A stretch of 64,000 nt of DNA. Source: Pedobacter arcticus A12 (lineage in GTDB: Bacteria > Bacteroidota > Bacteroidia > Sphingobacteriales > Sphingobacteriaceae). The translations under genes and the position numbers were made by a program. The stretch spans positions 310,001 through 374,000 of the forward strand of contig NZ_JH947127.1 in assembly GCF_000302595.1 (NCBI RefSeq), in the 5' to 3' direction. How positions within the stretch are numbered: position 1 is the stretch's first letter; each line of letters starts with the position of its first letter. Below, one piece after another: positions 35,141 through 49,945 of this stretch. A model generated the notes under the pieces. The model worked only from the letters and a program-made list of their open reading frames with translations. It ran no database searches and was not told the origin of the DNA.

Positions 35141-36196
35141 TTGGACACTATGGATTTTGAGGCTAAATTAATTCGACACAATAACAAAAACAGAATAGCT
35201 GTTTGGTACCCGAATATCCCAGCCTTGATTGCCCGTTTCAGAAAACTAACGGATGCTAAATGGAGTTCTACACTAAAAGTTTGGCATTTGCCAGATACAA
35301 GCGAAAACAGAGAGCGTTTTGAGTTGCCAAGCGATAAAGGAAAAGGGGTACCTTTTATGGATAAAATATCACAAATAGAACAGTTCAAAAAACATTTAGC
35401 CACCAAAAGATATAGCCCTAACACCGTTAAAACTTATAGCGACGCCTTGCAGACTTTTTTATTTTATTATAATGCTAAAGACGTTCGGGATATTGATAAT
35501 CAGGATGTTGTTTCATTTTACAACGATTATATTTTAGAGAAAAATCTGTCGTCATCTTTCCAAAACCAAGTGGTAAATGCAATTAAGCTTTATTTTAGAA
35601 CAATACGAGAGACGGCTATTAATGTTGACAAAATATACCGTCCTAAAAGAGATAAACTTTTGCCGAATGTGTTAAGCAAAGAAGAAATCAAAAAGATCTT
35701 AAATGCTCACACCAATATCAAACATAAAGCTATGTTGTGTATGATTTATAGTTGCGGACTTCGGCGTAGCGAACTATTAAGGTTAAAACCCAACGACATA
35801 GACTCAAAAAGGAATCTAGTGATAATTCGGCAGGCGAAAGGCAGAAAAGACAGAATTGCGCCATTATCACCTGCGATATTGGGAATTCTTAGGGAGTATT
35901 ACAAAGTGCACAAACCTTTAAGCTGGTTATTTGAAGGACAATATCCAGATACTGTTTACGATGAGCGCAGTTTGGGAAATGTTTTAAAACAAGCTTTACA
36001 AAAAACAGGAATTAAAAAACCAGTTACTTTACATTGGCTAAGACACAGCTATGCGACACACTTATTGGAAAGCGGGACAGATTTACGATACATTCAAGAA
36101 ATTTTAGGACATAAGAGCAGTCGCACTACAGAAATTTATACTCACGTAAGTACAAAAAGTTTACAAAATGTAAAAAGTCCGTTCGATGATCTGTAA
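35141..36196 (+). CDS. Tyrosine recombinase of the cassette array (XerC/D type)
   Basis: 351 residues. The N-terminal 70 residues (AKLIRHNNKNRIAVWYPNIP, WHLPDTSENRERFELP) are an extra module seen in Bacteroidetes integrases. Residues 75-160 form the SAM-like core-binding domain (SPNTVKTYSDALQTFLFYY). The catalytic domain has Arg in CGLRRSELLRL, Lys in RQAKGRKDR, HxxR in HWLRHSYATH, His in LGHKSSRTTEIYTHVS and the Tyr in IYTHVS. I see no insertion between the Lys and HxxR boxes of the kind that marks IntI. It lies immediately before the attI-like site and is the likely recombinase acting on it. Confidence 0.9.
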   Translation: MDTMDFEAKLIRHNNKNRIAVWYPNIPALIARFRKLTDAKWSSTLKVWHLPDTSENRERFELPSDKGKGVPFMDKISQIEQFKKHLATKRYSPNTVKTYSDALQTFLFYYNAKDVRDIDNQDVVSFYNDYILEKNLSSSFQNQVVNAIKLYFRTIRETAINVDKIYRPKRDKLLPNVLSKEEIKKILNAHTNIKHKAMLCMIYSCGLRRSELLRLKPNDIDSKRNLVIIRQAKGRKDRIAPLSPAILGILREYYKVHKPLSWLFEGQYPDTVYDERSLGNVLKQALQKTGIKKPVTLHWLRHSYATHLLESGTDLRYIQEILGHKSSRTTEIYTHVSTKSLQNVKSPFDDL

Positions 36197-36226: not shown

Positions 36227-36295
36227 GAGCTGCACATATACAACACAATTTGTATGTATATGTCTCACTGAGCTGCACATATATGTAAGTTAGCG
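36227..36295 (+). other. attI-like primary integration site
   Basis: Two perfect direct repeats of GAGCTGCACATATA lie at 36227-36240 and 36270-36283, 43 bp apart, with CATATACA/TGTATATG inverted between them. The second repeat ends 6 bp before GTTAGCGG, the core where cassette 1 begins (G at 36289). Direct repeats next to the recombination point recall the DR1/DR2 integrase-binding sites of attI. No long palindrome is present here, unlike all other boundaries, as expected for attI versus attC. Confidence 0.65.
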
Positions 36296-38861: not shown

Positions 38862-39000
38862 GCACTACCGCTAACATCAGTTTGGCAAAATGGCGGGTTC
38901 AGTAGTAATTCAAGTTCAGTTTTTCAATTGAACATTTGTGATAAATTGAACATTTGTACTTCTAATTCCGCCACTTCGCCAAGCTGAAAACCGTTAGCGG
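38862..39000 (+). repeat. attC-like palindrome B (end of cassette 1)
   Basis: It opens with ACCGCTAAC (38867-38875) and closes with CCGTTAGCGG (G at 38993). Inner arms GTTTGGC / GCCAAGC and GGCGG / CCGCC pair, spaced by an AT-rich loop with its own small inverted repeats. Bases GCACTACCGCTAA at the left complement the start of cassette 1 (TTAGCGGTAATGC at 36290) at 12 of 13 positions. Confidence 0.85.
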
Positions 39001-39007
39001 TCAGGCT

Positions 39008-39924: not shown

Positions 39925-40068
39925 AAGCCCGAACCGCTAACAAGCGTTTGGCAAAAAAGCGGGTTCAGTGCTTAAATGAAGCTTTGTTCTTCGTATTAAG
40001 TTCAGTACTGGCAAACAGTTTTGTGCTTCTAAATCCGATTCTTCGCCAAGCGCCAAAACGTTAGCAGA
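39925..40068 (+). repeat. attC-like palindrome C (end of cassette 2)
   Basis: CCGCTAAC at 39934-39941 and ACGTTAGCAG with G at 40060. Inner arms GCGTTTGGC / GCCAAGCGC pair, the loop holds TTAAGTTCAGTACTGGCAA. The left flank AAGCCCGAACCGCTAA is complementary to the cassette 2 start TTAGCGGTCAGGCT with one bulge. Confidence 0.85.
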
Positions 40069-40072
40069 AAGT

Positions 40073-40278
40073 TTAACTGACCTTAACCACATAATGCCTT
40101 TTTAGATATTTTTCAAGTGGTATAAATTTATCGGGCATATCTCTTTCTGTTACCATTGTGCATAATATACCATTCTTACTTAATATCCTTTCTCTTGACT
40201 TCCATTTCTTTGAAGTATATTCAAATACGTCACCTTCTTTTAACTCATTACCAAGTGAATCAAAAAAACCTTCTGCTA
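40073..40278 (-). pseudogene. Reverse-oriented ORF remnant in cassette 3
   Basis: On the minus strand a frame of about 67 codons ends at 40073 and reads AEGFFDSLGNELKEGDVF, EYTSKKWKSRERILSKNG, then RDMPDKFIPLEKYLKRHYVV. It has good coding character but no ATG near its beginning, because it runs straight into the attC core occupied by the intron. If the intron is removed the frame continues a few codons upstream, with a TTG as the only obvious start. It may be a small inverted cassette gene or the tail of a truncated one. Not recognised. Confidence 0.4.
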
Positions 40279-42151
40279 ATCGAGTAGACGGCTCTGCCAG
40301 AAACCTGACAGAGTGCGCCTCTCACACCACCGTACGTACGGGTCTCGTATACGGCGGTTCGTAAACTGATGGGTTGAGTTTTGTGTAAATCTCCAGCATT
40401 GGGATGTAGCCTTTCTGCTTTAGCCGTTTGATAGTTATCGTGGTATTAAGAATCGGGCTTTGCGCTATGCGCCAGCCCCCTTTTCTTGTCCTGCTCCATG
40501 CATAGGCGTGGTCGGCATCTACTCCTAAACGTAGCAGGTTCTTCCGTTTACGTTCAGGCTTTTTCCAATCAGTCCAGATGCAATAGCGCAGTCGGTTGCG
40601 CAACCAGCCGTCTATATCCCGCAGTTTACCTGCGATACTGCTCCCTTTGAAATAGGTGAGCCAGCCTCGGATAATCTCGTTGATCTTAACGATGCGTTCT
40701 TCCAGGCTTTTGGACAATGTTTTCCGCGTCACTGCTTTTAACTTCTCTTTCAGCTTTGCCCATGCTTTTTCTCCTACCGTTAACTGATACTGTCCCTTTA
40801 CTCCTTTTTGGTACGTGGATGCGAACGTAAAGCCCAGTATTGTAAACTTCACTGGTTTTACTATCCCGCTCTTTGCCTTGTTCACTTTCAGCTTTAGCCT
40901 GTTTACCAGGTATTTGGTAATGGCTTTGCCTGCCAGTTTCGCATCGGAAGGAAGTCTGCAGTAGATACTGAAATCATCGGCATAGCGAACGAATCTTAGC
41001 TTTCTCCTTTCCAGTTCTTTATCCAGCTCATTGAGCAGGATATTAGAAAGCAATGGGCTTAATGGACTGCCTTGCGGTACGCCTTTTCTTCGTTTTACCA
41101 GTCTGCCTTTGATCTGTATCGGTGCCCGCAACCATTTACGGATTAACCGTAGCGTAACGGGGCATTTTACCTTGCGGTAGATCAGGTTCAGTAGCAGGCA
41201 ATGGTCTACCTCGTCAAAGAATGTTTCAAGGTCGATAGCCACGACGTGGCTATAGCCTTCATGAATGTGGCTCAGCGCTTTCCCTACCGCTGTTCTAGCG
41301 CTTTTGTAGGGTCTAAAGCCATAGCTGTTCTCATGGAACTCATACTCGAACTTTGGCATCAAAACCTGTGATACGGCTTGTTGCAACAAGCGGTCTACAA
41401 CTGTAGGAATACCCAGTAAACGGACTTTTCCTCCGCCTTTGGGTATTTCTACCCCTAAGATTGATTGTGGCAGGTAACTGTTCCCTCCTACTGTTCCCAG
41501 TAATGCACTCTTGTGCTTTCGGACATAGTCTTCCAGCTCGGTGGTTTTTAAGCCATCAATGCCTGCGCTACCTTTGTTCGACACTACTTGTTGCAGTGCC
41601 TTTTGCAGGTTTTGTGGACGTAGTACCTGTGCAATCAATTCTTCTGCTTTTTGTTCTACATTTCTTTCTTCCTGTTCCGCTTCTACGAGGCTATCGCTTA
41701 CGCAATTCCTTCGTGGATTAAGAACCAGTTTACGTTCAGTCCTTCCTTGTTTGTGAGACCATGTGCCGTTTGTTGGCACCTCGTTTCCTCAAGTACTATG
41801 ACCTCTGCTGATTTCTCTTTGTGGCTAAACCCGTAGCCTAAGAGACCTCCCTCGGTAAGGTAAATACCCTTCTGTCTACTCCTGCTGAATCTACATAGTT
41901 GAGCTTTTGGTTCGCTTAGGACTTCGGTGTGCTGTGCCACCTCATCCACTCAATTATGCCTCTTATCCAGTTTCTGTTCGTCAGTGCAGACGTTTGCAGT
42001 CTCGCTTACTTCAGTGTAAAGCTCACGCCAAACCACCTTGCGACTTGCTAATTCTTCCAGGCGTTACCCCAGCGAATAAGGGACTTGCACCCTTTGGGTC
42101 TTTTATTCAATTTCTTGAAGAAAAGATTTATATTTACCATTCAAGGCGCAC
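40279..42151 (-). mobile_element. Group II intron A1, complete, inserted in an attC-like site
   Basis: On the minus strand it starts GTGCGCC (consensus GUGYG) and ends CTACTCGAT (AY end) with the presumed branch-point A in TCTACTC. Domain V lies at about 40324-40360 (GAACCGCC...GTACGGTGGTG), domain VI after it. Removing 1,873 bp rebuilds the palindrome: CTGCTA joined to ACCACAAATTT. The 5' exon ends TTTGTGGT and the 3' exon begins TAGC. This is the orientation and position used by group IIC-attC introns. Confidence 0.88.
40322..41779 (-). CDS. ltrA: Group II intron reverse transcriptase/maturase (intron A1)
   Basis: 485 residues. RT blocks: NKGSAGIDGLKT, PQSILGVEIPKGGGKVRLLGIP, FHENSYGFRPYKSA, AIDLETFFDEVDH, GVPQGSPLSPLLSN and the catalytic RYADDFSIYC. 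Domain X/GIIM has IIRGWLTYFKGSSI, followed by WRIAQSPILNTTITIKRL. No HNH endonuclease domain follows. The last 12 codons overlap domain V. It splices and reverse-transcribes its own intron. Confidence 0.93.
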   Translation of the reverse strand: MPTNGTWSHKQGRTERKLVLNPRRNCVSDSLVEAEQEERNVEQKAEELIAQVLRPQNLQKALQQVVSNKGSAGIDGLKTTELEDYVRKHKSALLGTVGGNSYLPQSILGVEIPKGGGKVRLLGIPTVVDRLLQQAVSQVLMPKFEYEFHENSYGFRPYKSARTAVGKALSHIHEGYSHVVAIDLETFFDEVDHCLLLNLIYRKVKCPVTLRLIRKWLRAPIQIKGRLVKRRKGVPQGSPLSPLLSNILLNELDKELERRKLRFVRYADDFSIYCRLPSDAKLAGKAITKYLVNRLKLKVNKAKSGIVKPVKFTILGFTFASTYQKGVKGQYQLTVGEKAWAKLKEKLKAVTRKTLSKSLEERIVKINEIIRGWLTYFKGSSIAGKLRDIDGWLRNRLRYCIWTDWKKPERKRKNLLRLGVDADHAYAWSRTRKGGWRIAQSPILNTTITIKRLKQKGYIPMLEIYTKLNPSVYEPPYTRPVRTVV

Positions 42152-42280
42152 ACCACAAATTTGTATTATAATGGCTGAACTGCTTTACGTTATTTCATCA
42201 CAACTAACTAAATTTATACGGGCAGACAAGTTTTTGCTTTCTATGCCATTACAACACAAATTCGCCAACCGTTAGCGGTA
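42152..42280 (+). repeat. attC-like palindrome D, right part (end of cassette 3)
   Basis: The left core CTGCTA is at 40273-40278, split from this part by intron A1. Arms AATTTGTATTATAATGGC and GCCATTACAACACAAATT pair at 16 of 18 positions, the loop has TAAATTTATACGGGCAGAC. It ends CCGTTAGCGG with G at 42271. The cassette 3 start TTAGCAGAAAGTTT complements AAACCTTCTGCTA. Confidence 0.85.
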
Positions 42281-42933: not shown

Positions 42934-43069
42934 GGCAACCGCTAATAACAAGTACAAAAATGGCTGACCTGCTTTATGTAACTTTCTACAAATTAATTAA
43001 GTTTATGCAAGCTGACTTTGGTATTGCTTCAACGCCATTTCTGTAAAAACTTGCAAAACGTTAGTGGTA
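42934..43069 (+). repeat. attC-like palindrome E (end of cassette 4)
   Basis: Opens with CAACCGCTAATAAC and closes with ACGTTAGTGG (G at 43060). Arms ACAAGTACAAAAATGGC and GCCATTTCTGTAAAAACTTG pair, loop TTAAGTTTATGCAAGCTGAC. TAGGCAACCGCTAA is complementary to the cassette 4 start TTAGCGGTAACCTA at 12 of 14 positions. Confidence 0.85.
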
Positions 43070-44047: not shown

Positions 44048-44065
44048 GAAAAAAGGCAACCGCTA

Positions 44066-45936
44066 GTCGAGTAGGCAAAGGGGGATTTCACCCCTAAACC
44101 TCTCACAGAACCGTACGTGAACCTCTCAATTCATACGGCTCTTGTTATACAGTCGATAAAATCTAAATAGTATTTAGACCAGTTTGTATCCCAATTCCCA
44201 ATGATAGAACAGGGTCGGATATGATTTTGTAATATACCTTAGCCATTTTACGGCTTTGACTTTGCTTCCTTTGAAGCGTTTATACTTGTTCAATATCCAA
44301 CCAATCATACGATGATGTAGATAATAAAACACAGGATGCAAGCTCTTTCTGCTTATCTTTCCATAATATTGAATCCAACCTCGAATCTTAGGATTCAACA
44401 GATTTGCTAAATCCTGTATCCCACGCTGAGTTTTATTATGGAATCCAAGTGTACGCAGTTCTCCCGTGATTCGAACTTTCGACTTTCGGCTCATTTTACA
44501 GTCAAACTGAAGAAAGCTTCCGCCGTTTTTCAATTTGAACCTTATTGGCTGAAAACTGAAACCCAAGAAATCGAACTGCACAGGATGCCCTTTGAGGGCT
44601 CTACCATCCTTCTTGCAGTACACTATTCTAGTCTTTTCAGGATGTGCGGTCAGACCGCACTCTTTCAGACGTTCTTTTAGAACTGCAAGTGTACGGACAG
44701 CTTCCTCATGGCTTCTGCAATGAACGATCATGTCATCTGCATAACGCACCATTTTTACCTCCGGACAGTATTTCTCCATCCATTTATCCACACAGTAATG
44801 CAAATATAGATTAGACAGCAATGGGCTGATTACCCCTCCTTGAGGTGTTCCCTTGCCCGTGGATATCTTAACTGTTCCATCTTCTAGTATTACTGGAGCT
44901 TCCAGCCACCTTTTGATGTAGAGCAACACCCACTTCTCCGAAACATGTCGCTCCAAAGCTTTCAACAGAAGGCGATGGTCAACATTCTCAAAGAATTCTT
45001 GTATGTCCAAATCTACCACCCAACTATATCGCAGTACGTTTTGACGTACAATCTCAATAGCTGTATGTGCACTCCTGTTGGGACGGTATCCATAAGAGTT
45101 TTCAGAAAATATGGATTCCAACCTAGGTTCAAGGTACTGCTTTACCACTTGTTGAGCGATTCTATCATTTACAGTGGGAATACCCAATGGTCGGGTTTTG
45201 CCCCCAGCCTTGGGAATATTGACCCGCTTTACCGCAGGTGCAAAATAACTTCCTGACGCCAGTCTATTCCATACTTTGTACAGTTCCTTGGAACGTACAC
45301 TATCGAATTCCGATAGGGTTTGATGGTCTATCCCAGCACTTCCTCTGTTACTTTTCACCTTCTTGTAGGCCACCCACACCATCTCCTTGGTTATGGGGAT
45401 CGACTTTGTTTGTTCTTTAAAAATCATCCTTACAATTTTAAGTTGTTCTTAAATATTAAACTGTACAACTGAAGTCCTTCGCTCCCTTCCCATTACAGAA
45501 ATTTCAACGCTACTACAACTTCATCCGCAACCTATATGCTCATTAGTAATCGACTCACAGGTATTTCCTGCTTGTGTTTTCCTTTTAGCATAGCACATAG
45601 GCTTCCTGTGGTTCCAAAAAATAAAGCCTGGATAGAAGTCATGCCCTCTTTATGACGGTTGCCGTATAGACAGTAATTAGGCGCCTTCTATACTTATCCC
45701 TGACTCCTCGATATGAATCGGGTTTTGACAACAACTGGTCATTTCGTCACTTCATCGAAAGGTTCGCTTTCGCTCATCTCTTCTATCCTTACCTGACTAT
45801 TTTAAATAGCCTTTTCTTTTATCGCTTCACACACCTTTGTCGCCTTAGATGAGTCATAAAAGTGGTTTGATGAGTTTCCCTAAAAACCCTCATCGGAGGA
45901 CCTACCTCCATCTTTATCATAGCTCACACAGCACAC
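44066..45936 (-). mobile_element. Group II intron B1, complete
   Basis: On the minus strand it starts GTGTGCTG and ends CCTACTCGAC. Domain V lies at about 44108-44142 (GAGCCGTATG...CGTACGGTTC), and domain VI has GAGAGG pairing with CCT-A-CTC around a bulged adenosine seven bases from the end. The 3' exon is TAGCGGTTGCC, the antisense of the attC core CCGCTA. Its 5' end abuts the 3' end of intron A2 at 45937. The whole element reappears at 47463-49333. Confidence 0.88.
44174..45427 (-). CDS. ltrA: Group II intron reverse transcriptase/maturase (intron B1)
   Basis: 417 residues. Blocks NRGSAGIDHQTL, VNIPKAGGKTRPLGIPTV, FSENSYGYRPNRSA, DLDIQEFFENVDH, GTPQGGVISPLLSN, and RYADDMIVHC, then the maturase domain with NPKIRGWIQYYGKISRKS. 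No endonuclease domain. About 35 percent like the A1 enzyme only in the core blocks, so it is a distinct lineage. Its translation is identical to that of the copy at 47571. Confidence 0.93.
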   Translation of the reverse strand: MIFKEQTKSIPITKEMVWVAYKKVKSNRGSAGIDHQTLSEFDSVRSKELYKVWNRLASGSYFAPAVKRVNIPKAGGKTRPLGIPTVNDRIAQQVVKQYLEPRLESIFSENSYGYRPNRSAHTAIEIVRQNVLRYSWVVDLDIQEFFENVDHRLLLKALERHVSEKWVLLYIKRWLEAPVILEDGTVKISTGKGTPQGGVISPLLSNLYLHYCVDKWMEKYCPEVKMVRYADDMIVHCRSHEEAVRTLAVLKERLKECGLTAHPEKTRIVYCKKDGRALKGHPVQFDFLGFSFQPIRFKLKNGGSFLQFDCKMSRKSKVRITGELRTLGFHNKTQRGIQDLANLLNPKIRGWIQYYGKISRKSLHPVFYYLHHRMIGWILNKYKRFKGSKVKAVKWLRYITKSYPTLFYHWELGYKLV

Positions 45937-46561
45937 ATCGAGTAGACGGCTCTGCCAGAAACCTGACAGAGTGCGCCTCTCACACCACCGTACGTACGGG
46001 TCTCGTATACGGCGGTTCATCGAGCATACTGTAAGAGCTCTTTTCACCACTTACAGCTTTGTCGTAGTTTAAAATAAGGCTATACCGAGGTATTCCTTAT
46101 TGAATTTTTGACTACTCAATGTTCAGTCCTTCCTTGTTTGTGAGACCTGTGCCGTTTGATGGCACCTCGTTGCCCCAAGTACTATGACCTCTGCTGACTT
46201 CTCTTTGTGGCTAACTCGTAACCTAAGAGACCTCCCTCGGTAAGGTAAATACCCTTCTGTCTACTCCTGCTGAATCTACATAGTTGAGCTTTTGGTGTTC
46301 TTCAGACTTCGGTGTGATGTACCACCTCATCCACTCAATAATGCCTCTTATCCAGTTTCTGTTCAGTTTATACTGAGCGAAGTCGAAGTATCAGTGCAGA
46401 CGTTTGCAGTCTCGCTTACTTCAGTGTAAAGCTCACGCCAAACCACCTTGCGACTTGCTAATTCTTCCAGGCGTTACCCCAGCGAATAAGGGACTTAAAC
46501 CCTCTGGGTCTTTTATTCAATTTCTTGAAGAAAAGATTTATATTTACCATTCAAGGCGCAC
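45937..46561 (-). mobile_element. Group II intron A2, ORF-less derivative of type A
   Basis: 625 bp. Both ends match intron A1: GTGCGCC at 46561 and CTACTCGAT at 45937, with intact domain V-VI. The RT gene is missing and replaced by about 100 bp of unrelated sequence at 46019-46120 with a hairpin (AATAAGG/CCTTATT). A 28-bp insertion in domain I carries a dispersed repeat (46373-46388). It could splice or move only with a maturase supplied in trans. Confidence 0.8.
46373..46388. repeat. Dispersed repeat inside intron A2
   Basis: CTGAGCGAAGTCGAAG interrupts sequence that is continuous in intron A1 (TTTCTGTTCGTCAGTGCAG there), so this copy arrived after the introns diverged. Confidence 0.7.
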
Positions 46562-46691
46562 ACAACAGGTTTAAAAAATTGCGGGCGAAGTGGTTTTACT
46601 TCCTTCATCTGTTTTTATTAAGTTTGTGCGGGCAGACGAATTTCTTGCAAGTAATACCGCAACTTTCAAAACCCGCAAAACGTTATAAGCC
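46562..46691 (+). repeat. attC-like palindrome F, right part (end of cassette 5)
   Basis: The left core CAACCGCTA is at 44057-44065, separated by introns B1 and A2. Arms AGGTTT / AAACC and GCGGG / CCCGC, loop TTAAGTTTGTGCGGGCAGAC. It closes AACGTTATAAGCC with G at 46682. Confidence 0.8.
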
Positions 46692-46783: not shown

Positions 46784-47140
46784 ATGGACAAACTTTTTGA
46801 GATTATTATCTTAGAGGAAGTACTTGAATTTTTAAAGGGCTTACAGAAAAAACATTCTGAGAAAATCTTATATAATATCAGAAAATCTCAAGTTGAACTA
46901 GACTCTGAACTCTTCAAAAAATTAAATAATGAGATTTGGGAATTCCGAACTTTGTATCAAGGACTTCAATATAGACTGCTAGCTTTTTGGGATAAAACGT
47001 CTGAAAATCAAACATTTGTTGTATCGACACATGGATTTGTGAAAAAGCGAAGTAAAGTTCCAGACAATGAGATTCAAAAAGCAATGCAGATTAGAGAAAA
47101 ATATTTAATAGAAAAAGGACTAAAGAATAAAAAGAAATGA
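46784..47140 (+). CDS. HigB-type (RelE/Gp49-like) toxin (cassette 6)
   Basis: 118 residues. FEIIILEEVLEFLKGLQKKHSEKILYNI and IWEFRTLYQGLQYRLLAFWD are the signature of the phage-derived Gp49-like HigB family, followed by FVVSTHGFVKKRSKVPDNEI. These are ribosome-dependent mRNA interferases. It precedes its antitoxin (toxin-first order) and overlaps it by 4 bp (ATGA). Confidence 0.87.
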   Translation: MDKLFEIIILEEVLEFLKGLQKKHSEKILYNIRKSQVELDSELFKKLNNEIWEFRTLYQGLQYRLLAFWDKTSENQTFVVSTHGFVKKRSKVPDNEIQKAMQIREKYLIEKGLKNKKK

Positions 47141-47451
47141 AAACATACACATTAGACGAAGTACAGGACAGAATTATCGGGGAAATCGGAACTACTGACC
47201 GTGATTTCTTTGAATATGAACTTCAAATGAATTTAATAGGTAAAGCCATTAAACAGACAAGACAAGAACGGAACCTGACACAGGAAGAACTTGGGAAGCT
47301 AATAGGGGTTCAGAAAGCACAAATTTCCAGACTCGAAAATAACGCAAGCAACGTGACAATGGATACTCTAATGAGGGTTTTTTCTGCATTGAAAGCAAAG
47401 GTGAAATTGCATGTAGAACTTGCAAATCTGAATATAAATGTGGGCAAATAA
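47137..47451 (+). CDS. HigA-type XRE antitoxin (cassette 6)
   Basis: 104 residues. The HTH is at 35-90: IGKAIKQTRQERNLTQEELGKLI and VQKAQISRLENNASNVTMDTL. It neutralises the preceding toxin and likely represses the operon through the palindrome at 46725. The stop lies 3 bp before the attC core of this cassette. Confidence 0.88.
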   Translation: MKTYTLDEVQDRIIGEIGTTDRDFFEYELQMNLIGKAIKQTRQERNLTQEELGKLIGVQKAQISRLENNASNVTMDTLMRVFSALKAKVKLHVELANLNINVGK

Positions 47452-47462
47452 TACGGCTTATA

Positions 47463-49333
47463 GTCGAGTAGGCAAAGGGGGATTTCACCCCTAAACCTCT
47501 CACAGAACCGTACGTGAACCTCTCAATTCATACGGCTCTTGTTATACAGTCGATAAAATCTAAATAGTATTTAGACCAGTTTGTATCCCAATTCCCAATG
47601 ATAGAACAGGGTCGGATATGATTTTGTAATATACCTTAGCCATTTTACGGCTTTGACTTTGCTTCCTTTGAAGCGTTTATACTTGTTCAATATCCAACCA
47701 ATCATACGATGATGTAGATAATAAAACACAGGATGCAAGCTCTTTCTGCTTATCTTTCCATAATATTGAATCCAACCTCGAATCTTAGGATTCAACAGAT
47801 TTGCTAAATCCTGTATCCCACGCTGAGTTTTATTATGGAATCCAAGTGTACGCAGTTCTCCCGTGATTCGAACTTTCGACTTTCGGCTCATTTTACAGTC
47901 AAACTGAAGAAAGCTTCCGCCGTTTTTCAATTTGAACCTTATTGGCTGAAAACTGAAACCCAAGAAATCGAACTGCACAGGATGCCCTTTGAGGGCTCTA
48001 CCATCCTTCTTGCAGTACACTATTCTAGTCTTTTCAGGATGTGCGGTCAGACCGCACTCTTTCAGACGTTCTTTTAGAACTGCAAGTGTACGGACAGCTT
48101 CCTCATGGCTTCTGCAATGAACGATCATGTCATCTGCATAACGCACCATTTTTACCTCCGGACAGTATTTCTCCATCCATTTATCCACACAGTAATGCAA
48201 ATATAGATTAGACAGCAATGGGCTGATTACCCCTCCTTGAGGTGTTCCCTTGCCCGTGGATATCTTAACTGTTCCATCTTCTAGTATTACTGGAGCTTCC
48301 AGCCACCTTTTGATGTAGAGCAACACCCACTTCTCCGAAACATGTCGCTCCAAAGCTTTCAACAGAAGGCGATGGTCAACATTCTCAAAGAATTCTTGTA
48401 TGTCCAAATCTACCACCCAACTATATCGCAGTACGTTTTGACGTACAATCTCAATAGCTGTATGTGCACTCCTGTTGGGACGGTATCCATAAGAGTTTTC
48501 AGAAAATATGGATTCCAACCTAGGTTCAAGGTACTGCTTTACCACTTGTTGAGCGATTCTATCATTTACAGTGGGAATACCCAATGGTCGGGTTTTGCCC
48601 CCAGCCTTGGGAATATTGACCCGCTTTACCGCAGGTGCAAAATAACTTCCTGACGCCAGTCTATTCCATACTTTGTACAGTTCCTTGGAACGTACACTAT
48701 CGAATTCCGATAGGGTTTGATGGTCTATCCCAGCACTTCCTCTGTTACTTTTCACCTTCTTGTAGGCCACCCACACCATCTCCTTGGTTATGGGGATCGA
48801 CTTTGTTTGTTCTTTAAAAATCATCCTTACAATTTTAAGTTGTTCTTAAATATTAAACTGTACAACTGAAGTCCTTCGCTCCCTTCCCATTACAGAAATT
48901 TCAACGCTACTACAACTTCATCCGCAACCTATATGCTCATTAGTAATCGACTCACAGGTATTTCCTGCTTGTGTTTTCCTTTTAGCATAGCACATAGGCT
49001 TCCTGTGGTTCCAAAAAATAAAGCCTGGATAGAAGTCATGCCCTCTTTATGACGGTTGCCGTATAGACAGTAATTAGGCGCCTTCTATACTTATCCCTGA
49101 CTCCTCGATATGAATCGGGTTTTGACAACAACTGGTCATTTCGTCACTTCATCGAAAGGTTCGCTTTCGCTCATCTCTTCTATCCTTACCTGACTATTTT
49201 AAATAGCCTTTTCTTTTATCGCTTCACACACCTTTGTCGCCTTAGATGAGTCATAAAAGTGGTTTGATGAGTTTCCCTAAAAACCCTCATCGGAGGACCT
49301 ACCTCCATCTTTATCATAGCTCACACAGCACAC
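47463..49333 (-). mobile_element. Group II intron B2, second copy
   Basis: Matches intron B1 at a fixed offset of 3,397 bp with no difference that I see. It interrupts the attC core of cassette 6, CGGCTTATA (47454-47462). It too abuts a type A intron end at 49334. The match between the two loci spans 44064-46018 and 47461-49415, with one change inside the type A part (45957 A, 49354 G). Confidence 0.88.
47571..48824 (-). CDS. ltrA: Group II intron reverse transcriptase/maturase (intron B2)
   Basis: 417 residues, identical in sequence to the enzyme at 44174-45427, including RYADDMIVHC and the maturase domain. Identity through all frames points to recent spread or gene conversion. Confidence 0.93.
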   Translation of the reverse strand: MIFKEQTKSIPITKEMVWVAYKKVKSNRGSAGIDHQTLSEFDSVRSKELYKVWNRLASGSYFAPAVKRVNIPKAGGKTRPLGIPTVNDRIAQQVVKQYLEPRLESIFSENSYGYRPNRSAHTAIEIVRQNVLRYSWVVDLDIQEFFENVDHRLLLKALERHVSEKWVLLYIKRWLEAPVILEDGTVKISTGKGTPQGGVISPLLSNLYLHYCVDKWMEKYCPEVKMVRYADDMIVHCRSHEEAVRTLAVLKERLKECGLTAHPEKTRIVYCKKDGRALKGHPVQFDFLGFSFQPIRFKLKNGGSFLQFDCKMSRKSKVRITGELRTLGFHNKTQRGIQDLANLLNPKIRGWIQYYGKISRKSLHPVFYYLHHRMIGWILNKYKRFKGSKVKAVKWLRYITKSYPTLFYHWELGYKLV

Positions 49334-49655
49334 ATCGAGTAGACGGCTCTGCCAGAGACCTGACAGAGTGCGCCTCTCACACCACCGTACGTACGGGTCT
49401 CGTATACGGCGGTTCGAAATTAATGGGTTAATTTTCTTGTAGATTTCAAGCATCGACTGGTAACCTTCCTGTTTAAGCCGTTTAACCGTTATCGTAGTAC
49501 CCAATATTGGACTTTGCGCTATGCGCCAGCCTCCTTTTCTTGTCCTGTTCCATGCGTAGACGTGGTCGGCATCTACCCGCAAACGTATCAGGTTTTTCCG
49601 TTTACGTTCGGGCTTCTTCCTTTCGATAGCTATCGAAACTATCCAGATGCAGTAG
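49334..49655 (-). pseudogene. Truncated group II intron A3 with RT C-terminal remnant
   Basis: It has the type A 3' end (CTACTCGAT at 49334, domain V-VI) and about 70 codons of the RT C-terminus (KKPERKRKNLIRLRVDADHV, RKGGWRIAQSPILGTTITVK), diverged from A1. Compared with A1, the frame shifts after the NPLIS residues. Near 49621-49638 an 18-bp perfect palindrome (TTTCGATAGCTATCGAAA) is inserted. The 5' two thirds are lost at a junction near 49655 with an XRE gene fragment. Confidence 0.8.
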
Positions 49656-49835
49656 CGCGAAGAAACTCGAACAAAACTTGGAATGACACACGAGCAGCTT
49701 GCTGAAAAGTGTGGGGCCAATAAATCTTATATTTCTAGAATTGAAAATGATGCTTCTGACATCAGACTTTCTACGTTAATGAAAATCATTCAGAAAGGTT
49801 TAGGCGGACACTTAAAATTGACTGTTCAAATTTAA
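49656..49835 (+). pseudogene. XRE-type antitoxin gene, 5'-truncated
   Basis: The frame from about 49659 reads EETRTKLGMTHEQLAEKCGA, NKSYISRIENDASDIRLSTL, then MKIIQKGLGGHLKLTVQI and a stop at 49833. It is the HTH and tail of a HigA-like antitoxin with the first part lost at the junction with intron A3. ATG at 49683 lies in the middle of the HTH, so a functional product is unlikely. Confidence 0.75.
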
Positions 49836-49845
49836 GAGAAAACCC

Positions 49846-49945
49846 GTACTGGCTAACCACAGGTTTAAAAAAATGCGGGCGATTGCTCTCAATCCTTTAC
49901 AATCTTTCACTAATTTAGTACGGGCTCACAAACCGTTTCATTTAT
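49846..49945 (+). repeat. Partial attC-like palindrome G
   Basis: CTGGCTAACCACAGGTTT, TGCGGGCGATTG and TAATTTAGTACGGGCTCAC match the left arm and loop of sites D and F, but the right arm and GTTAG core are missing. It is the relic attC of the truncated XRE cassette. Confidence 0.65.

Follow-up and report, generated by a model that had tools for sequence, protein, structure and literature searches.

We consider it very probable that an endonuclease-less group IIC retro-intron has inserted at the folded attC-like site of an integron-like cassette array in Pedobacter arcticus A12, and that a second intron, which is not of class IIC, was later inserted at the 3′ ends of two IIC introns in the same array. 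The features concerned, in the window (the whole stretch of 64,000 nt that was analysed), are the following.

35141–36196, + strand: tyrosine recombinase gene (protein P0003) beside the array, without the IntI-specific patch
36275–36292, + strand: attI-like motif GCACATATATGTAAGTTA, compared by eye
38866–39002, − strand: attC-like site 1, intact (palindrome scan and site model)
39932–40069, − strand: attC-like site 2, intact (palindrome scan and site model)
40270–40278, + strand: attC-like site 3, R″ outer half CTTCTGCTA
40279–42151, − strand: intron 1, full-length group IIC, 1873 nt, in the bottom strand of attC-like site 3
40279–40359, − strand: intron 1 domains V–VI (Rfam Intron_gpII)
40322–41779, − strand: intron 1 RT/maturase ORF, 485 aa, GTG start, YADD motif, RVT_1 and GIIM
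41860–42032, − strand: intron 1 domains I–IV (Rfam group-II-D1D4-3, 119.7 bits)
42152–42280, + strand: rest of attC-like site 3 (ACCACA...GTTAGCGG); the folded strand is the − strand
42937–43069, − strand: attC-like site 4, intact, TAATAAC core (site model)
44059–44065, + strand: attC-like site 5, R″ outer half ACCGCTA
44066–45936, − strand: intron 2 copy A, non-IIC, joined directly to a decayed intron 1 at the latter's 3′ end
44174–45427, − strand: intron 2 RT/maturase ORF of copy A, 417 aa
45937–46561, − strand: ORF-less intron 1 remnant of 625 nt that retains both ends
46562–46691, + strand: rest of attC-like site 5 (site model)
47455–47462, + strand: attC-like site 6, R″ outer half GGCTTATA
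47463–49333, − strand: intron 2 copy B, identical to copy A
about 49334–49656, − strand: intron 1 remnant, 5′-truncated; right end approximate, BLAST match to 49620

Intron 1 starts with GTGCGCC and ends with CTACTCGAT, and thus combines GUGYG...AY ends with group II ribozyme domains, of which the domain V–VI match (41 bits) is barely over the Rfam gathering score of 40. The encoded protein is a group II RT/maturase (TIGR04416, 365 bits for a cut-off of 300) with RVT_1 and GIIM as its only Pfam domains at E up to 0.001; no endonuclease domain was found at this threshold. Since positions 40279 and 42152 are both A, the DNA alone leaves a choice of 1 nt for the boundary, which is settled by the GUGYG start. 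The precise ends GTGCG...CGAT proposed in a sequence-only reading of this DNA are confirmed by that start and by alignment with copies at loci of four relatives, in which intron positions 1–1873 can be aligned in one piece. A further copy of intron 1 adjoins an attC-like site at a contig end (G000:C5:1-982, L074); introns of this kind may be responsible for some assembly breaks.

Removal of intron 1 in silico joins CTTCTGCTA to ACCACAAATT and restores the core, as had been predicted, and the same junction is present in homologous sites which carry no intron. Joined site 3 matches uninterrupted sequence across the junction, at 94% identity, in two relatives: positions 1770–1896 of L079 (94.5%; a match to L046 is the same stretch) and 3338–3462 of L018 (94.4%). 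The latter empty site lies 0.8 kb behind its own recombinase gene, which contains one internal stop. More diverged uninterrupted sites are also matched by joined site 3; for site 5, intron-free counterparts occur in L084 (77–80% identity). Moreover, a site model built without the intron-split sites recovers two of these at 42144–42280 (83 bits) and 46554–46691 (87 bits). Intron 1 lies between the two Ts of G-T|T-A on the bottom strand of the palindrome, so that the antisense, bottom-strand position at an attC-like core described in the sequence-only reading holds for this intron.

That reading also placed introns at the same core position in three sites. The position (TA| on the top strand) is indeed interrupted in all three, at 40278/40279, 44065/44066 and 47462/47463, but in the last two it is a different, non-IIC intron that touches the core. 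Copies A and B of this intron 2 are identical over 1871 nt and, in the RNA sense, each comes directly after the 3′ end of an intron 1 remnant, while the two remnants are unlike in structure and sequence. The intron 2 RT falls outside class C, in a separate, long-branched clade of the 76-row RT tree described below. Relatives of intron 2 abut the 3′ end of a IIC intron in Maribacter (L163; 93% nucleotide identity, ORF deleted), at two loci of another genome (G244; 71%) and on a Persicobacter plasmid (L197; 63% amino acid identity). In all, six of the seven close copies do so, the exception being a second Persicobacter locus (L196), as against none of eight distant relatives inspected by eye (L093–L096, L182 and L198–L200). 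This suggests, from sequence comparison, that intron 2 homes to the end of another intron, the likely homing site being the conserved CUACUCGAU end together with the adjoining exon. The idea that introns recognise attC-like palindromes is consistent with 43 of 64 testable lineage copies of intron 1 (see below) but does not extend to intron 2, whose target seems to be the end of intron 1; with six of seven close copies at IIC 3′ ends, intron 2 is disfavoured as a second attC-targeting intron.

The order of insertion could in principle be the reverse, the IIC intron having arrived second, behind the attC hairpin and ahead of an older intron 2: the hairpin and the GT of the 5′ exon would survive a first insertion and leave a later IIC insertion possible. 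We think this rather unlikely in view of the 1871-nt identity of the intron 2 copies beside such unlike intron 1 remnants, for which gene conversion is a possible alternative explanation, and of the several dissimilar IIC introns that have a related intron 2 copy at their 3′ end. Because identical copies lie next to unlike, decayed IIC remnants, we favour later insertion of intron 2 at two IIC 3′ ends. Twintrons are known (PMC4424553, in the part available to us), while for a 3′-end tandem of this type no report was found in the accessible parts of the CC-licensed PMC literature. One intron-2-like element does form a twintron: in Proteiniphilum (L144, 3050–4970) it lies within a IIC intron, between DV and DVI.

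The array itself has an integron-like organisation. A motif like CATATATAnAAGTTA lies behind the recombinase gene in the window and in six relatives, L023 being the most different. Cassette-specific bases start immediately after this attI-like motif and, by eye, match the far end of the first cassette in the window, L084, L085 and L082. The two ends of individual cassettes were compared for 38 sites in the longest arrays beside a recombinase (L083, L084, L085, L088 and L090) among 19 loci scanned. Over the six variable bases outside GTT, cassette start and far end agree at a mean of 5.52/6 in 33 pairs, 27 of them perfectly, compared with an average of 2.87/6 for 287 other pairs and 2.95 for the two halves of one standing site. 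Such matched ends are the trace expected from circular cassettes recombined inside the core. The intron-split cassettes of the window behave in the same way when compared by eye: GTTAGCAGA/TCTGCTA| and GTTATAAGC/GCTTATA| match at 6/6 and GTTAGTGGT/ACCGCTA| at 5/6. Thus the six outer bases of site 3 are those of the cassette start GTTAGCAGA at about 40060 (6/6), and the outer half of site 6 matches its own cassette start, GTTATAAGCC, at about 46680.

The sites carry an AAC/GTT core. Alignment of 34 intact sites (31 of the 38 plus three from the window), which also served to build the site model, revealed a 17-pair stem in which both sides have changed in 16 of 17 pairs, counted over sequences and not as independent events. 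Folding favours the bottom strand in 27 of the 34 sites and not in the other 7; the mean difference is 2.07 kcal/mol. The model identifies 15 sites in the genome of the window (E up to 0.01) and, at 1e-6, matches in 108 of 150 genomes, with 21 candidates scored per genome. As recombinase homologs (1e-60) occur in 68 of the 150, the sites in many genomes are unaccompanied by a close recombinase, resembling clusters of attC lacking an integrase.

The recombinase is not a canonical IntI. P0003 scores 208.8 against the integron integrase model (cut-off 265) and 218 against a XerA/integron model (cut-off 220), and its match to IntI4 is in two stretches, the intervening part being about 42 residues longer in IntI4. 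In the stretch compared, IntI1 has 110 residues, the window protein and 24 of the 29 relatives aligned (L017–L045) have 69, and the other five have 68. A canonical IntI is thereby excluded, a patch of about 41 residues being missing in P0003 and all 29 relatives, and the array is consequently not a canonical IntI integron. Five further recombinases of the window's genome likewise lack the patch, so that its absence alone does not define the recombinase group, and in the recombinase tree the placement relative to IntI is surrounded by long branches. With integrons based on IntI the window array shares a recombinase gene, an attI-like motif, tandem cassettes, attC-like palindromes with an AAC/GTT core, matched cassette ends and a bottom strand that folds better in most sites; it differs in the missing patch and in outer R-box bases that vary freely between cassettes. 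The term attC, used in the sequence-only reading, needs a qualifier, as the recombinase lacks the IntI patch.

One might conclude from the missing patch, the score below the IntI cut-off and the occurrence of sites in 108 genomes but of recombinase homologs in only 68 that the palindromes are mere cassette-end repeats or terminators of a mobile element which is not an integron, the recombinase being unrelated to them. We regard this as quite improbable given the matched cassette ends, the attI-like motif behind the recombinase and the four cases in which the bases following it match the far end of the first cassette; furthermore, among the matches listed, at least 18 relatives have model sites no more than 5 kb from a recombinase homolog.

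From its sequence, the RT of intron 1 is of class IIC, PDB comparison and trees being in agreement. Using phmmer against PDB, the best match is the GsI-IIC RT (5.5e-100), followed by 7uim, 5hhj and 5hhl (to 3.4e-68), which we take to be IIC; LtrA (2.5e-33) and 6me0 (2.6e-29), the latter presumably IIB, are far behind. A contig scan for related loci was then limited to its best 80 matches, representing 77 loci. From these, 48 were chosen by hand for a 76-row RT tree and 47 entered it, one having been eliminated by a filter (over 2 stops). Intron 1 lies within a 54-row clade (100/96) whose labels are nearly all Bacteroidota, and the neighbouring clade of 13 rows (100/97) groups two Klebsiella integron introns with GsI-IIC and introns of the terminator type. 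The same split appears in a 43-row tree using 24 loci, where the 30-row Bacteroidota branch is weak if the divergent L173 is included (89/64) and stronger for the 29 rows without it (99/95). The class C membership implied by the sequence-only reading is thus upheld, and a position outside class C was seen in neither comparison.

Assignment to the known IIC-attC introns did not fare as well. Constraining the 30 Bacteroidota-side rows and the two Klebsiella attC introns to one clade lowers lnL by 36.9 (p-AU 0.0036), the clade having been chosen post hoc from the 76-row tree and the IIC-attC references being two proteobacterial RTs only. With these two references, the AU test argues against the intron 1 lineage as a member of the known IIC-attC clade, and the grouping expected in the sequence-only reading is rejected. 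Class 1 integron introns such as those on the Klebsiella plasmids NZ_CP146156 and NZ_MK036890 similarly have a IIC-type RT, are antisense to the cassettes and occupy the same insertion base, ..GT|TA behind a palindrome (L177 and L180), while the intron 1 lineage is distinguished by a separate RT clade, Bacteroidota hosts and an array recombinase without the patch. The identity of the nucleotide (TTGT|TA and TTTGT|TA in the two Klebsiella introns) could indicate that the known IIC-attC clade was transferred into Bacteroidota. To this explanation we attach a small probability, considering the likelihood cost of a single clade, for a group fixed after seeing the tree, and the clustering of both Klebsiella RTs with GsI-IIC and terminator-type introns. 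Judged from these comparisons, the intron 1 lineage would work like the IIC-attC introns yet appears to form a lineage of its own. Although the lineage is found mainly in Bacteroidota, two MAG contigs labelled Micrarchaeota and Williamsia (L117 and L127) also carry its RTs, through either transfer or binning error.

The insertion base is conserved across the lineage. The intron 5′ end is recognisable in 66 of the 77 loci, and the 5′ exon ends in GT in all 66 (60 TGT, 6 GGT). The 3′ exon begins with T in 50 of the 52 copies having any 3′ exon sequence, the exceptions being L172 and L163, the latter leading on into intron 2. At least 160 nt are available ahead of the 5′ end at 64 loci, which are partly non-independent (several Polaribacter copies, L113/L114 and L140/L144 have common exons). 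Using a home-made palindrome score, 43 of these 64 reach 10 or more, compared with 4.2% of control positions ending in GT (42 of 1000), and 39 reach 12 or more, compared with 13 of 1000. The distance from AAC to the insertion is 121–127 nt in 35 of the 43. Full-length copies in five other genomes (G006, G012 with two, G010, G097 and G145) are antisense at A|AC or G|AC of the palindrome, and in a sixth (G121) the intron copy has its 5′ end cut. The score is below 10 in 21 of the 64 copies; some of these resemble diverged attC, and others, such as those of Pontibacter, may use other hairpins.

The other IIC clade was sampled through seven introns from the same bacterial family (L052–L058); all seven, inspected by eye, lie behind terminator-like hairpins. 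They share with intron 1 a class IIC RT and ribozyme and a hairpin ahead of the insertion, but theirs is a short terminator hairpin, mostly with a T-run, where intron 1 has a palindrome of about 125 nt. That the introns at attC-like sites are themselves ordinary terminator-targeting IIC introns using any stable hairpin, the attC-like context being incidental, is very improbable: terminators and, less often, attC are known targets of IIC introns (PMC4424553, in the part available to us) and for 21 of 64 copies the score is not clearly attC-like, but the frequency of high-scoring palindromes over controls, their near-fixed distance, the invariant GT and the tree separation from the seven introns at terminator-like hairpins rule out simple terminator targeting as the main reading. 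At two loci (L055 and L178), a IIC intron is followed directly by the start of a further IIC intron, forming tandem copies.

Insertion at the attC-like site, which we continue to favour, would proceed as follows. The intron 1 ribonucleoprotein would reverse-splice into the single-stranded, folded bottom strand of the attC-like site, entering right behind the hairpin between the first and the second T of the G-T|T-R core. By analogy with established IIC biology, the hairpin would replace IBS2, the GT would lie within IBS1 and the T would be IBS3. A replication-primed step would probably complete insertion. The R″ box, once split, would lose recombination and the cassette would be locked in place. 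Subsequently, the non-IIC intron 2 would have inserted at the 3′ end of two IIC introns in the window. Splicing, mobility and recombination of these elements are predictions.

A folded hairpin is a requirement of IIC introns. The exact, strand-specific and recurrent landing of such introns in Bacteroidota therefore provides independent evidence that the palindromes fold, are used and behave as attC sites. Such landings further point to integron-like arrays in a group for which one large survey, IntegronFinder 2.0, names in its accessible part a single complete integron in Bacteroidetes proper, that of Salinibacter ruber M1 (PMC9024848, where Chlorobi and Ignavibacteriae integrons are named as well). 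Bacteroidota are listed among the integron-bearing phyla in the available text of PMC8618304 and PMC9668308, as is the Bacteroidetes/Chlorobi group in that of PMC2426708, which speaks against total novelty. IntegronFinder uses an IntI-specific domain, according to the accessible part of PMC9668308, and since IntI searches demand this domain, Bacteroidota arrays may be missed. The IntI insertion is described as incompletely conserved in an integron-like subgroup (PMC8138268, in the part available). In the accessible portion of the CC-licensed PMC literature, our searches turned up no description of such arrays, with or without IIC introns. The halophile group IIB introns near attC are likewise non-IIC introns associated with attC sites; from the available part of PMC7923331 they are truncated and located in CALIN, UHB.I2 having no conserved exons, whereas intron 2 occupies the exact IIC 3′ end.

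On balance, we favour the wider view that Bacteroidota have their own widespread integron system with a patch-less, XerA/IntI-like recombinase, that a IIC lineage has independently evolved targeting of the attC hairpin at the same nucleotide as the proteobacterial IIC-attC introns, and that a non-IIC lineage spreads via IIC 3′ ends. A second IIC lineage at the same base offers a way to ask how a ribozyme learns a recombination hairpin.

An example of such an array on a plasmid is provided by Chryseobacterium NZ_CP041688 (L176), where an intron with a 68%-identical RT is antisense to the cassettes; the array has six site-model matches, one of them (5481–5615 of L176) at the intron 5′ end, and its recombinase is annotated as 'site-specific tyrosine recombinase/integron integrase'. 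In the window, one cassette (46784–47451) is formed by a toxin-antitoxin-like pair (Gp49 and HTH_3 matches), a typical integron cargo. At 49657–49930 an intron 1 remnant passes at its 5′ end directly into an antitoxin-like frame, seemingly truncated at its start, followed (by eye) by an attC-like half without an R′ end; this looks like a deletion scar. Finally, a Flavo-1 RNA is located at 1459–1558 (Rfam RF01705, 50.8 bits).
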